From a virus, in the IMG/VR virus record IMGVR_UViG_3300023257_000102, positions 1 through 26,052 of that record: DNA of 26,052 nucleotides. One strand, given 5' to 3'. Under the pieces are notes generated by a model. The model did no database searches. It saw only the letters and a list, made by a program, of their open reading frames with translations, and was not told the DNA's origin. Shown here piece after piece: positions 2,984-19,414 of this stretch. The position numbers and the translations under genes were made by a program. Each line of letters begins with the position of its first letter. The first letter of the stretch is position 1.

Positions 2984-4027
2984 ATGAAATTTAAATTAAA
3001 TAATAATTCTACTAAATTGATTTTAAAAGAATCAAGTAAAGAAGAATTTAATCAACTTAAATTATATCTTAATAGATATGTTAAGAATTATAGATTTATG
3101 CCCAGATTTAAATTGGGTGTATGGGATGGAAAAATGGATTTTTTTAATAATGGAACTATTGAGTTTGGATTGTGGTATGAAATAATGAAATGTTGTAAGG
3201 AATATGGTTATCCATTTATAATTGAAAATAAAGAATTATTTATAAAAGATAGTACAATTAAAAGAGAAGACATTGTTACATTTTGTGAAGATTTTTACAA
3301 AGATCATAAACAAAAAGATAGTGAAGAACCATTTTTTCCTTATGAACATCAAATAGATGCAATTTATAAATTATTTGTATGGAAATATGGATTGATTGAA
3401 GTTGCTACAGCAGGTGGTAAATCTTTAATATTTGGTACATTTTTATTTTATTATTTAAAAAATGTAAATCCAGATGCCAAATTTTTATTAATTGTACCAA
3501 CTATAAATCTTGTAACTCAATTTTATAATGATATTATGGAATATAATTTAGGGTTTAATAATGATAATAAAATTCCATTAAATATAAGAATTGATGAAGT
3601 TATGTCTCAACAACCAAGAAAATATTTTGGTGAAGATGAACCAAATGTATTTGTGGGAACATATCAAAGTTTAGAAAAAAGAGATAAAAAATGGTTGTCA
3701 CAATTTGAAGTCGTTTGTGTTGATGAATGTTTACACCAAGATACTTTAATTAATATGGGAAATGGGAGTGTAAAAAAAATAAAGGATATTAAGGAAGGAG
3801 ATAAAGTTTATACTGTAAATGAAAAAAATAATAAAAAAGAAATAAGATATGTAGATTTTATCTATAAAAATTTAAGTATTGATGATATTTATGAATTGGA
3901 AATGGAAGATGGAAATATATTGAAAATAACGGGAAATCATAAAATTAGATTAAAAAATAATAAATGGGTTAGGATTGATGAATTAAATTATAATGATGAT
4001 ATTTCAGATTTTAATTTTTATATATAG
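2984..4027 (+). CDS. uvsW: UvsW-like helicase, N-extein (248 aa) joined to the N-half of a split intein (99 aa)
   Basis: T4 UvsW is an SF2 ATP-dependent helicase that unwinds branched DNA and R-loops. Residues 1-100 match its N-terminal domain (YRFMPRFKLGVWDGK beside T4 YRFNPRFRYGNWDGR). Walker A is ATAGGKS (141-147), with IVPT for motif Ia and VGTYQS further on. The sequence VVCVDE (to residue 248, base 3727) is the first half of Walker B; then Cys249 starts the intein: CLHQDTLI is block A, GD.VYTV closes the first block, and GNHKIRLKNNKWVRIDEL is block B. The ORF stops at TAG, so the helicase domain is incomplete and needs the C-part at 5017-5952. There is no Shine-Dalgarno site at the ATG. 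Confidence 0.9.
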   Translation: MKFKLNNNSTKLILKESSKEEFNQLKLYLNRYVKNYRFMPRFKLGVWDGKMDFFNNGTIEFGLWYEIMKCCKEYGYPFIIENKELFIKDSTIKREDIVTFCEDFYKDHKQKDSEEPFFPYEHQIDAIYKLFVWKYGLIEVATAGGKSLIFGTFLFYYLKNVNPDAKFLLIVPTINLVTQFYNDIMEYNLGFNNDNKIPLNIRIDEVMSQQPRKYFGEDEPNVFVGTYQSLEKRDKKWLSQFEVVCVDECLHQDTLINMGNGSVKKIKDIKEGDKVYTVNEKNNKKEIRYVDFIYKNLSIDDIYELEMEDGNILKITGNHKIRLKNNKWVRIDELNYNDDISDFNFYI

Positions 4028-5133
4028 TTGCATTTGCTTAATGAAGTTCCAAAAAAATTAAATAATATGAAAAAGATAATAATTTGCCCAGTTTGTGATT
4101 CAAAGTTTATAAAGAAAACAAAAAATAGACTCATATGTGATTCTTGTAATAAAATATTTTCAGAAAAAACAGCAAAATATAGATTTTTATTAGATAATGA
4201 TTTTGTTATATTGTATGATAATACAAATAATATTATCAAAAATAAAATATTTGATTTAATTTTTGATAAATTAAAAATGAAAATCTTAAATAGAAAAGAT
4301 AAAGATGATAATTTGAAAAAATGGTTGAATGTTTATTATATAGATTATAGTAATTTGTCATTTGAAATTACAATTGAAAATTTTTACAAGTATTTAAAAG
4401 GGGAAAATTTATGTCCAATATGTGGAAATAAAACCAAATTTGTTGGAATATGGAAAAGGAGTGCTTATAATAAATATTGTAGTGACGAATGTAGGTATAA
4501 ATCAATATCAATAAGACAAACAGATGACAATTCAGTGAATAGGATAAAGGATAAACAAAAATGGAAAAAAAATATATCAAATTCAATGAAAGATAAAATA
4601 AAGAATGGTGAATTTATTCCAAATATAACAAATTCGTGGTCTAATTCTAAATGTATTTGTAAAATAGGTGAATATGATGTAGTGTTTAGATCAACGTGGG
4701 AAGCATTTTTTAATTTAGTGAATCCTCATTTAAAATATGAAATTACAATAATACCATATGTGTTTAATAGTGTTGAACATAATTATATTGTAGATTTTAC
4801 AGATATAGATAATAAAATATTATATGAAATTAAACCTGATAGTGAAAGAAATAAAAAATTAAATGTAGTTAAGGAAATTTATTCGTTAGAATGGTGTATT
4901 GAAAATAATTATAAATATATTATAATTGGTAATGATTGGTTTAAGGATAATTTTAATAAATACAAATATTTATTATCTGATAGTGATAAAATCTTTAAAA
5001 ATTTAAAACAATTTGAATGAAAATAAAATCAATAAAAAAAATAGAATATGATGGTGATGTTTATAATTTGAGGATAAAATCGGAGAATGGTAACAATCAC
5101 AATTATTTTGCAAATAACATATGTGTATCTAAT
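3728..5133 (+). mobile_element. Split intein with nested homing-endonuclease gene, inserted in the DECH box of uvsW
   Basis: The N-half is encoded by 3728-4024 (99 codons, first residue Cys) and the C-half by 5017-5133 (39 codons, ending NNICVSN). The next residue is Cys+1 of the C-extein. Joining the exteins gives VCVDE-CHTAKAKT, which restores an intact DECH box matching T4 UvsW NDECHLATGKS; this fixes both splice junctions. The halves lie on separate ORFs in different frames, and the DNA between them is occupied by an endonuclease gene. This is the 'fractured gene' arrangement described for phage split inteins (Dassa and colleagues, 2009). The penultimate residue is Ser, not the usual His. 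Class 1 splicing chemistry (Cys1, block B His, terminal Asn, Cys+1) appears otherwise complete. Confidence 0.88.
4067..5020 (+). CDS. Free-standing homing endonuclease, zinc-finger plus PD-(D/E)xK/Vsr-like type
   Basis: Counting from the ATG at 4067 (317 aa), two zinc knuckles are visible: CPVC...CDSC (Cys7, 10, 24, 27) and CPIC...CSDEC (Cys116, 119, 138, 142). A NUMOD3-like linker follows (MKDKIKNGEFIPNITNSW). The C-terminal nuclease region has FRSTWE (Glu212), YIVDF (Asp243) and YEIKP (Glu254, Lys256), a PD-(D/E)xK-type set. It sits between the two intein halves, so its likely role is spreading the element into intein-free uvsW alleles. The frame continues upstream without interruption to a TTG at 4028, directly after the TAG of the N-intein ORF; which start is used is unclear. 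The stop overlaps the C-intein ATG (ATGA), suggesting coupled translation. Whether it is the Vsr-like/EDxHD family of other fractured genes cannot be settled by eye. Confidence 0.75.
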   Translation: MKKIIICPVCDSKFIKKTKNRLICDSCNKIFSEKTAKYRFLLDNDFVILYDNTNNIIKNKIFDLIFDKLKMKILNRKDKDDNLKKWLNVYYIDYSNLSFEITIENFYKYLKGENLCPICGNKTKFVGIWKRSAYNKYCSDECRYKSISIRQTDDNSVNRIKDKQKWKKNISNSMKDKIKNGEFIPNITNSWSNSKCICKIGEYDVVFRSTWEAFFNLVNPHLKYEITIIPYVFNSVEHNYIVDFTDIDNKILYEIKPDSERNKKLNVVKEIYSLEWCIENNYKYIIIGNDWFKDNFNKYKYLLSDSDKIFKNLKQFE

Positions 5134-5952
5134 TGTCATACAGCCAAAGCAAAAACAGTTCAAACTGTTGTTGGAAAAACTATTGAAACTGCTAAATTTA
5201 GATTTGGTATGTCAGGTACATATCCTCCAGATAATTCTGCTGAGTTATTTACAATAGAAAGTATAACTGGACCATTAATTCAAAAAATCGGTGCTAAAAC
5301 ATTGATGGAAAAAGGATTAATATCTAATGTTAAGATTAAATGTTTAGTATTAAATTATGATGATAAGAAATTTGCAGAGAATGTTTTTACTATTAAGAAA
5401 CACGGTGGAGGTGGAAAGGCTTGGTTATTAGAAAAGGATTATGCTCAACAATCACTTAAAAGAAAACAATTTATTGGTAAATTAATTTCTAAATTTAAAC
5501 ACAATTCTCTTGTTCTTTTTATTAATATAGATTTTGGTACAGAAATGTATAATTATTTTAGAGATAATATACCTGGTGTAGATTTTTATTATATCGATGG
5601 TGGCACAAGTGCTAAAAAAAGAGAACATATAAAACAGTTGATGGAAAAAACTGATGGTGATAATATTAAAGTACTTGTGGCTTCGTTCGGTACGTTGAGC
5701 GTAGGAATTAATATAAAATCTATAACGAATGTTATATTTGCTGATTCGTATAAATCTGATCAAAAGGTTAGACAATCAATAGGTAGAGCACTTAGATTAC
5801 ATAAAGACAAAGAGAAAGCAATTATTTTTGATATTGTAGATAGATTTCACACATCGTTTAAAAATATATTATATAACCACTATATCCACAGAAGAACAGA
5901 AATTTACAAGAAACAACAATATCCCTTTGATGAAATTAAAATTTCATTATAA
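5017..5952 (+). CDS. uvsW: C-half of split intein (39 aa) joined to UvsW-like C-extein (272 aa)
   Basis: Residues 1-39 are the intein C-half: IEYDGDVYNLRI is block F-like and FANNICVSN is block G. From Cys40 (base 5134) the helicase resumes with CHTAKAKT, then FGMSGTYPP (T4 FGLSGSLRDG), the second RecA domain with VASFGTLSVGINIKS (T4 VASYGVFSTGISVKN), and motif VI QSIGRALRLHKD (T4 QTIGRVLRKHGS). The end FDEIKISL resembles T4 FNYVMKTVNL. Extein total is 248+272 = 520 aa, close to full T4 UvsW. The start ATG overlaps the endonuclease stop and has no ribosome-binding site, so translation probably depends on coupling. By itself this piece lacks Walker A and half of Walker B. Confidence 0.88.
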   Translation: MKIKSIKKIEYDGDVYNLRIKSENGNNHNYFANNICVSNCHTAKAKTVQTVVGKTIETAKFRFGMSGTYPPDNSAELFTIESITGPLIQKIGAKTLMEKGLISNVKIKCLVLNYDDKKFAENVFTIKKHGGGGKAWLLEKDYAQQSLKRKQFIGKLISKFKHNSLVLFINIDFGTEMYNYFRDNIPGVDFYYIDGGTSAKKREHIKQLMEKTDGDNIKVLVASFGTLSVGINIKSITNVIFADSYKSDQKVRQSIGRALRLHKDKEKAIIFDIVDRFHTSFKNILYNHYIHRRTEIYKKQQYPFDEIKISL

Positions 5953-18685: not shown

Positions 18686-19414
18686 ATGGGTTTTAGAACA
18701 GATATACTTTCAATAAGCGGTGATACATCAAGAATAATAATAAATAAAACTGGTAATGGTGGAATATTTTCTGATGAAGGTGGTTCATTATCAGTTAATA
18801 ATGATGGAAAACTTATATATACAGAACCAACTGGTGGAGAGTGGTTTATAATTGGACCATCAGGGGGGACAAGTTTATCTGCATTCACATATGAAACAAA
18901 TAATTTGATTATCAAACAAGATGATGGTCAAAATTTTCCTTTAGATTTAACAACAACATTAGATATTAGATATGCTGCGTCAGGTGCAACTGGTACAAGT
19001 GGAACAAGTGGAACAGATGGTACTTCAGGTGTAGATGGAACTTTTTATGGATCATCAGGTACAGATGGTACTTCAGGTACAGATGGTACTTCAGGTACAG
19101 ATGGTACTTCAGGTACAGATGGTACTTCAGGTACAGATGGTACTTCAGGTACAGATGGTACTTCAGGAACATCAGGAAGTAGTGGCACATCAGGGACTTC
19201 AGGAACAAACGGCACAAGTGGAATATCTGGTACATCAGGTATATCAGGTACAGACGGTACATCAGGAACAGATGGTACATCAGGAACAGACGGTATATCA
19301 GGTACATCAGGTATATCAGGAACTTCAGGAACAGATGGCACATCAGGTACTTCAGGAACAGACGGCACATCAGGAACAGATCCACTTGTACCAGCTGTTC
19401 CATTTCCTACGTAG
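18686..19414 (+). CDS. Collagen-like tail fibre protein, N-terminal part (ends at a probable frame break)
   Basis: Residues 1-99 form a fibre-type N-terminal domain ([19 protein letters not shown], then [17 protein letters not shown]), a style I associate with tail fibres of Bacteroidota phages. Residues 100-232 are a collagen-like run of G-T-S, G-T-D and G-I-S triplets. After [14 protein letters not shown] the frame hits TAG at 19412. In the frame one base back, translation is open from within the repeat, continues past this point as [16 protein letters not shown] and joins the ORF at 19513-19953 with no stop. The real product is therefore likely 18686-19953, about 422 aa, broken by a one-base deletion, an assembly error, or a -1 ribosomal frameshift. 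The fibre probably binds the host surface. Confidence 0.7.
18983..19381 (+). repeat. Collagen-like coding repeat, with six perfect 18-base units
   Basis: The region encodes G-X-Y triplets with Thr, Ser, Asp and Ile. From 19058 to 19165 the unit ggtacagatggtacttca (Gly-Thr-Asp-Gly-Thr-Ser) is repeated six times without a mismatch; flanking units are diverged. All three forward frames and the reverse frames stay open across it, which creates false ORFs. Changes in unit number keep the frame (18 bases = 6 codons), so length variation between relatives is expected. Confidence 0.95.

Follow-up and report, generated by a model that had tools for sequence, protein, structure and literature searches.

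A phage uvsW gene very probably broken by a split intein inside its Walker B box

The broken uvsW gene and its intein halves

Our subject is a gene for the helicase UvsW that lies in two pieces in IMG/VR virus record IMGVR_UViG_3300023257_000102; the whole record, 26,052 bases with a GC content of 18-40% by gene, is called the window below. At the break, the upstream piece ends in the N-terminal half of an intein, the downstream piece begins with the C-terminal half, and a separate open reading frame (ORF) for an endonuclease lies between the two. The features are as follows, with lengths in amino acids (aa):

2984-4027, plus strand: UvsW N-half gene, 347 aa (N-extein and intein N-half), ending in a TAG stop; matches UvsW_N (2e-8), ResIII (2e-11) and intein_Nterm (8.9e-9)
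2984-3727, plus strand: N-extein, 248 aa, helicase domain 1 up to motif II, ending in VCVDE; aligned to T4 UvsW 18-233
3728-4024, plus strand: intein N-half, 99 aa, with Cys1 and block B TGNH; profile matches and PDB sequence matches, including the DnaB intein 1mi8 (E 0.001)
4028-5020, plus strand: endonuclease ORF, 330 aa, between the intein halves; phrog_15427, structure model, TnsA fold match
4688-4837, plus strand: conserved nuclease residues of the endonuclease ORF, from an alignment of 63 rows
5017-5952, plus strand: UvsW C-half gene, 311 aa (intein C-half and C-extein); ORF and profile matches
5017-5133, plus strand: intein C-half, 39 aa, with block F (VYNL..NHNYFAN) and block G (CVSN) motifs
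5134-5952, plus strand: C-extein, beginning CHTAKAK, the rest of motif II onwards; residues 1-244 of 272 aligned to T4 UvsW 234-464

The position of the break is unambiguous. A Glu codon at 3725-3727 is followed by the codon of intein Cys1 at 3728-3730, and the last Asn of the intein (5131-5133) by the +1 Cys (5134-5136), so the span originally predicted for the split intein, 3728-5133, is exact to the base. The N-extein aligns to residues 18-233 of T4 UvsW (1rif, E 2.3e-23; 2oca, E 9.6e-23) and the C-extein to residues 234-464 (2oca, E 1.2e-21), which places the junction at E233/C234 of the T4 protein (here and below a slash marks the splice junction). The UvsW N-terminal domain, the helicase domains and an alignment along the length of T4-type UvsW are all found. 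PHROG families 16259 and 9690, both named 'DNA helicase', span the halves including their intein parts (E 1.5e-48 and 1.3e-56). The joined exteins are 61% identical over 518 columns, along their length, to the intact UvsW of L005, a 735-kb uncultured phage, and 31% identical over 484 columns to the UvsW of phage VR7; the residues at the site are VDEGH in L005 and NDECH in VR7. The original prediction, that a split intein cuts UvsW at DECH and that splicing would rebuild VDECH, is borne out by the alignment with T4 UvsW, by intact L005 and by the same three-gene order in distant phages, and its proposed comparison with intein-free UvsW shows the joined exteins matching across DECH. Walker B has a known role in the ATPase activity of helicases, from which it follows that the broken motif II would have to be rejoined for this activity.

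The intein halves fare less evenly in profile searches, which had also been proposed as a check. The N-half passes TIGR01445 intein_Nterm (36.2 bits against a cut-off of 24.5), but both halves stay below the Pfam Intein_splicing gathering score of 35.8 (N-half, E 4.1e-8, 33.6 bits; C-half, E 0.015, 15.5 bits), and Pfam Hint matches the N-half at E 2.4e-6 with 27.7 bits, under its cut-off of 29.7. The claim that both halves carry the standard motifs likewise stands for Cys1, block B TGNH and block F, but not for block G, where the usual penultimate His is Ser (VSN/C). The class 1 residues Cys1, T68 and H71 of block B, N39 of the C-half and C+1 are all present. In a canonical split intein, as described in the excerpted text of PMC12707363 (PubMed Central, PMC), an N-part of about 100-120 aa and a C-part of about 35-40 aa are separate polypeptides; with 99 and 39 aa on separate ORFs, the window halves have the canonical split position.

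The same break in other phages

The intein N-half with its extein edge was searched against 50,697 phage records. Thirty records matched, 14 of them over 96-99% of the query, and these 14 represent 11 phages: six of Salmonella, one of Proteus and four Prevotella Lak phages. Five of the 11 were read in detail (S16, PM2, SEA1, CF-SP2 and, with code 15, Lak-B2), and all have a split uvsW with the same gene order. Salmonella S16 and its relatives, Proteus PM2 and Prevotella Lak-B2, Lak-B4, Lak-B7 and Lak-B8 thus share the site and intein family of the window, and the gene order too where it was read. In S16 and PM2 the three features are named 'DNA helicase', 'hypothetical protein' and 'DNA helicase', and the Lak records are unannotated. 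S16 and PM2 differ from the window in keeping the penultimate His (AHN) and in their reading-frame overlaps.

Scans of IMG/VR, from which 80 of 96 and 80 of 137 relatives were kept, gave after removal of duplicates 110 distinct loci, including the window and three named phages. Seventeen were set aside: 14 that lack one half, two (L139 and L141) with the intein at another site, and L153, which lacks the DE/C junction. The remaining 93 carry both intein halves at DE/C and comprise the window, the three named phages and 89 further IMG/VR loci; 85 are split and eight contiguous. The host gene is UvsW-type in 84. Of these, 60 are split with the endonuclease, 16 are split without it (one only tentatively UvsW; the class takes in L018, which has a 92-aa remnant), seven are contiguous without an insert and one is contiguous with an in-frame insert, by eye a Vsr-like nuclease. 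In L156 (4261-6810) a single ORF encodes a helicase with an intein at VDE/C...VSN/CHH; the in-frame insert it contains resembles, by eye, a Vsr-type nuclease.

The other nine loci (L017, L028, L030, L032, L033, L034, L036, L040 and L160) have the same intein family in a second helicase, at VDE/C...N/CH, and eight of them have the same endonuclease family. The L030 helicase matches Pfam Helicase_C_2; from this match and the motif order in L030 we infer that the second helicase is DinG/XPD-like, an assignment tested by Pfam on L030 and extended to the other eight by their lack of a UvsW match and their similar CH.. junction. When bacterial and archaeal genome contigs were searched with an alignment of the intein N-half, none of 80 pattern-matching stretches encoded a relative, and so no host link emerges.

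Residues needed for splicing are kept throughout this set. The block-B Thr, the block-B His, the last Asn and the +1 Cys, none of which served as search bait, are each present in all 93 loci; the block-F His is present in 90, and for Cys1 and parts of block F, which were in the search patterns (Cys1 also as a filter), conservation is not independent evidence. The penultimate residue of block G is Ser in 73 loci, as in the window, Ala in 13 and His in two. A His at this position is common in class 1 inteins, not universal, and with Ser or Ala so frequent here its replacement need not be a defect, although Asn cyclisation may be slower.

Two further kinds of locus bear on how the halves might be joined. 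In L025 (6342-10661) 4.3 kb containing other ORFs separate the halves, so that joining in cis is not an option; in L095 and L096 the gap is equally large and gives no match to the endonuclease. The contiguous intein of L012 is identical to the window halves at 76 of 135 aligned residues (56%), and its structure model (pLDDT, predicted local distance difference test, 91.9) finds the NrdJ-1, gp41-1 and DnaE inteins in Foldseek at E 9e-10 to 2e-7, so that L012 is predicted to have an intein fold.

The endonuclease gene and how the locus may work

The endonuclease ORF, which the original prediction did not mention, starts with TTG at 4028, directly after the TAG of the N-half, its first in-frame ATG being at 4067, and it matches phrog_15427, 'endonuclease', at E 1.6e-31. 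At its other end its TGA overlaps the ATG of the C-half (ATGA). Of the 69 loci that have split halves and an endonuclease match, 61 show such an overlap between the endonuclease stop and the start position of the C-half, which suggests that translation of the two is coupled. Among 65 aligned members of the endonuclease family, 48 match Tn7_TnsA-like_N and 18 match NUMOD3, a motif of homing endonucleases (Pfam, E<=0.01); no Vsr family is among their Pfam matches.

An AlphaFold2 model built from 63 aligned rows has a mean pLDDT of 86.5. Its C-terminal part matches TnsA best (Z 9.1, over 136 and 123 residues in two entries), with weak lower matches to Vsr (Z 6.2) and the homing endonuclease I-Bth0305I (Z 5.9). 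The domain models as a PD-(D/E)XK nuclease whose nearest solved fold is TnsA. The fold is common to all three proteins, which are 10-18% identical to the window endonuclease over the aligned part; the latter adds an N-terminal Cys-rich part, in which pairs of Cys are visible by eye. Eleven residues are invariant or conserved in at least 90% of the 63 rows: R221, S222, W224, Y244, Y253, I254, D256, F257, E267, K269 and P270. Judging by the fold family, D256, E267 and K269 would be catalytic and, with R221, S222 and W224, fit a PD-(D/E)XK site. A Pfam scan of eight window proteins, the only search that covered them, shows no genes for TnsB- or TnsC-type partners.

Taken together, it is very probable, on the sequences, that a naturally split class 1 intein breaks this UvsW gene at VDE/CH, that the gap holds a free-standing homing-type PD-(D/E)XK endonuclease and that trans-splicing restores the helicase. 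We infer splicing, loss of ATPase activity without it, homing and the homing target along the following lines. The two half-proteins would be made separately and associate through their intein halves. Trans-splicing by Cys1, by Asn39 in the C-half and by Cys+1 would follow and rebuild VDECH, and hence the ATPase site. The endonuclease would most likely cut intein-free uvsW alleles near the DECH codons, and repair of the cut allele would copy the intein, the endonuclease and the break into it. Trans-splicing is the best reading because all required residues are kept, the split is canonical, the gap in L025 is wide and filled, and contiguous relatives exist, of which one, L012, is predicted to have the intein fold.

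Could the pieces work without being joined? The halves might no longer splice and the protein pieces assemble non-covalently, as reported for the split NrdA of phage Aeh1, leaving the intein parts as relics. Such split enzymes function in T4-like phages, according to the excerpt of PMC2988022 used here, and the penultimate His is absent from block G. The splicing residues, however, are kept in 93 of 93 loci, and the break runs through motif II, which would have to be rebuilt unjoined. The ratio of nonsynonymous to synonymous change (dN/dS) in the intein is below 1 in all 25 printed pairs (range 0-0.70; median of 150 pairs 0.28; 0-0.14 in five of six pairs with a proportion of silent differences, pS, of 0.05-0.30, and 0.34 in the sixth), figures that are rough since pairs were pre-filtered at a proportion of nonsynonymous differences (pN) below 0.3, a step biased towards low ratios, and many of them approach saturation. 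We consider relic halves highly improbable. Another explanation would have an ordinary contiguous intein with an embedded endonuclease, split only by sequencing errors (one stop and one frameshift) or by a recoded TAG; in the window the N-half and the endonuclease do share one frame, with a single TAG between them. Yet this frame is shared in only 22 of the 69 loci, about the one in three of chance, and is therefore no sign of read-through; read-through of the two other window genes that end in TAG would add only 4 and 6 codons before a stop; the endonuclease stop overlaps the C-half start in most loci, as described above; and the isolates S16 and PM2 have the same split with ORFs overlapping in different frames. 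Recoding of the TAG is therefore rejected, and the explanation as a whole is next to negligible.

The endonuclease might be cargo or a defence nuclease that settled in the gap and no homing enzyme: the gaps of L025, L045 and L097 hold other ORFs without a match to it, and its closest solved fold, TnsA, is a transposase subunit. But this family is the commonest gap occupant (68 of 93 loci), the homing-endonuclease motif NUMOD3 occurs in part of the family, and in Yersinia phage TG1 a relative is found with a piece of terminase on either side, so that we regard the cargo explanation as unlikely.

Several points weigh against the trans-splicing and homing mechanism, among them the replaced penultimate His, the non-independent conservation of search-bait residues and the pre-filtered dN/dS pairs described above. 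The window endonuclease itself matches no Pfam family at E<=0.01, a search of PDB sequences with its profile gives nothing at E<=1, and Foldseek gives its model no E-value better than 0.031; two mitoribosomal proteins (Z 6.9 and 6.7) outrank Vsr and I-Bth0305I as structure matches, so that the TnsA match alone stands out. The nearest intact relative, L005, has no Cys at +1 (VDEGH) and could not host the window intein unchanged. Finally, in the pairs L061/L049 and L061/L055, taken up below, extein identity is not raised near the site and no copied flank is seen.

Mobility, relatives and meaning of the intein

When 81 uvsW loci are compared in pairs, the inteins resemble each other more than the exteins do, with a mean identity of 47% as opposed to 31% (rank correlation 0.58); the extreme among the compared pairs is S16 with L059, at 63% and 21%. 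A more slowly evolving intein could explain such a difference, and for this reason silent changes were examined. Three of 3160 pairs, those among L049, L055 and L061 in one cluster, have an intein pS of 0.24, 0.34 and 0.36 and an extein pS of 0.82-0.86, near saturation, nearly all other pairs being too diverged for this comparison. In the pairs of L061 with L049 and L055, exteins are 56-78% and inteins 88-94% identical. Because silent changes are few in the inteins while the exteins are near saturation, a recent transfer of the intein among these three loci appears well supported; the pattern is hard to explain otherwise.

In the intein tree (138 columns, with 34 of 89 inner branches open), copies from the second helicase fall in more than one part. 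One of them, L017, groups with the UvsW copy L023 (99/91) and is by plain identity about equally close to other copies of its own helicase family. We put forward tentatively, at somewhat less than even confidence, that the DE/CH intein is one mobile allele that homes among distant uvsW genes, has passed from the Walker B box of one helicase family to that of another (UvsW and DinG/XPD-like), and cycles among states (split with endonuclease, split without it, split around other genes, contiguous mini-intein), with some copies fused again.

Re-fusion is the weak part of this picture. Contiguous inteins stand among split ones in the tree, and L012, L016 and L140 have a Met where split C-halves begin, as do 76 of the 85 split loci; the contiguous form of L012 and L016 and that of L140 may thus be split inteins fused again. 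The evidence for re-fusion is this tree position and this Met, and the Met is equally explicable as a pre-existing residue taken as the start at fracture. The contiguous state needs 6 changes on the tree against a mean of 6.8 with shuffled labels, no excess over chance, and the branch joining L140 to split loci (92/94) is not starred. The usual direction is given as contiguous to split, the opposite one, in the part of PMC7765530 we consulted.

One pair of loci bears directly on this question. L061 (split, with the endonuclease) and contiguous L140 have exteins that are 94% identical and DNA blocks at 87%, 87% and 94%, with 1029 bp remaining in L061 and 103 bp in L140. Their inteins are only 71-77% identical, with a pS of 0.72 that exceeds the extein pS of 0.55, and the L061 intein is instead 90-94% identical to that of L049, whose exteins match those of L061 at only 56-66%. 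These figures argue against a recent in-place fusion of L061 into L140 by loss of the endonuclease. The two loci carry distinct intein alleles at a shared site of almost identical genes, and not one allele turned into the other; if the region around the site was replaced in either locus, this would fit better than simple deletion. That the difference is larger in the intein than in the exteins weakens the mobile-allele proposal. On each flank of the site, L061/L140 DNA identity drops to about 0.7-0.86 for about 400-600 nt, a pattern that a conversion tract might produce.

The uvsW gene is interrupted at other places too. A second break, in motif V (VASY/GTFSTG), occurs in 11 loci found by patterns around the stop (L013, L018, L031, L037, L044, L164, L166, L167, L168, L169 and L170). 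There the upstream piece closes with a conserved stretch of some 45 aa (..FG...IKV...V.LSNG..K.AKDIT.DDDV..W). The downstream piece has ..VVIVASY (in L044, VLIATY) followed by a stop, and 4 (TGAC) or 7 (TAGGTGC) extra bases precede GTFSTG in the +1 frame; this comes directly after a predicted hairpin of -16 to -21 kcal/mol, a value without shuffle control. Some of these gaps hold an ORF that looks HNH-like by eye, and the one in L044 is GIY-YIG. Programmed frameshifting, re-initiation or fragmentation of the gene may account for this break; a group I intron was considered and rejected, five loci giving no Rfam match at E<=0.01 and, at E<=10, only matches far below the gathering score. L045 and L064 have by eye a contiguous intein at Walker A in a uvsW that also bears the DE/CH split intein, and L047, L057 and L062 are close kin of L045. 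L139 and L141 carry a split intein elsewhere in uvsW, after motif III (TGTLDGTQ/C...HN/CHKLV in L139), with a different ORF between the halves (HNH-like by eye in L139); L137 has the C-half only.

In the window itself, a weak UvsY match (E 0.014, below the cut-off) at 1719-2162 on the minus strand adjoins uvsW, and uvsY lies near uvsW in S16 and VR7 as well. Collagen-like GTSGTDG repeats at 18686-19414 have a local GC content of 0.395 in this AT-rich phage and are surrounded by genes that look by eye like glycosyltransferase genes. No Rfam family reaches its gathering score in the window, and no tRNA is found.

What kind of system is this? Dassa and colleagues reportedly described in 2009 fractured genes, conserved genes interrupted by two intein halves, with an endonuclease ORF standing free in the gap. 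The window agrees with this description in having a gene broken by intein halves with an endonuclease ORF between; its own features are the host gene and site, UvsW at DE/CH, and an endonuclease that resembles TnsA more than the Vsr-like family reported for fractured genes. The split DNA polymerase B of Pseudomonas phage MIJ3, in the excerpt of PMC6892783 at hand, likewise combines a split intein and an endonuclease in a phage replication gene, but in another gene, at another site and with an HNH endonuclease. Inteins at the equivalent E/C of SF2 helicases occur in Lactobacillus phage Lb338-1 (ADE/C...SHN/CHH) and Vibrio phage K459 (QDE/C...VHN/CHH), which differ from the window in being contiguous single ORFs that have the penultimate His; K459 also has an annotated endonuclease downstream of its helicase gene. 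Inteins in the Walker B of phage terminases are already known, as the excerpt of PMC5050341 states. VidaL inteins, considered as a possible helicase case, have no helicase tie in the portion of PMC13014065 available to us. The kind is thus already known, a fractured gene with a split intein, and phages prove to have it commonly at this site. The original prediction knew of no intein described at this site of UvsW, and in the open-licence PMC literature covered by our searches, as far as it was read, we found no report of an intein in UvsW; the same split is nevertheless already present in public phages such as Salmonella S16.

UvsW can thereby be added to split DNA polymerase, terminase and the other genes that phages maintain as separate pieces. 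Since it is the ATPase motif that is interrupted, trans-splicing should be a requirement for recombination and repair. With hosts from two gene families and both split and contiguous forms at a single site, the 93 loci allow tests of how split inteins spread and how they relate to contiguous ones. They also supply many new candidate split intein pairs, and public phages such as S16 can be relabelled.

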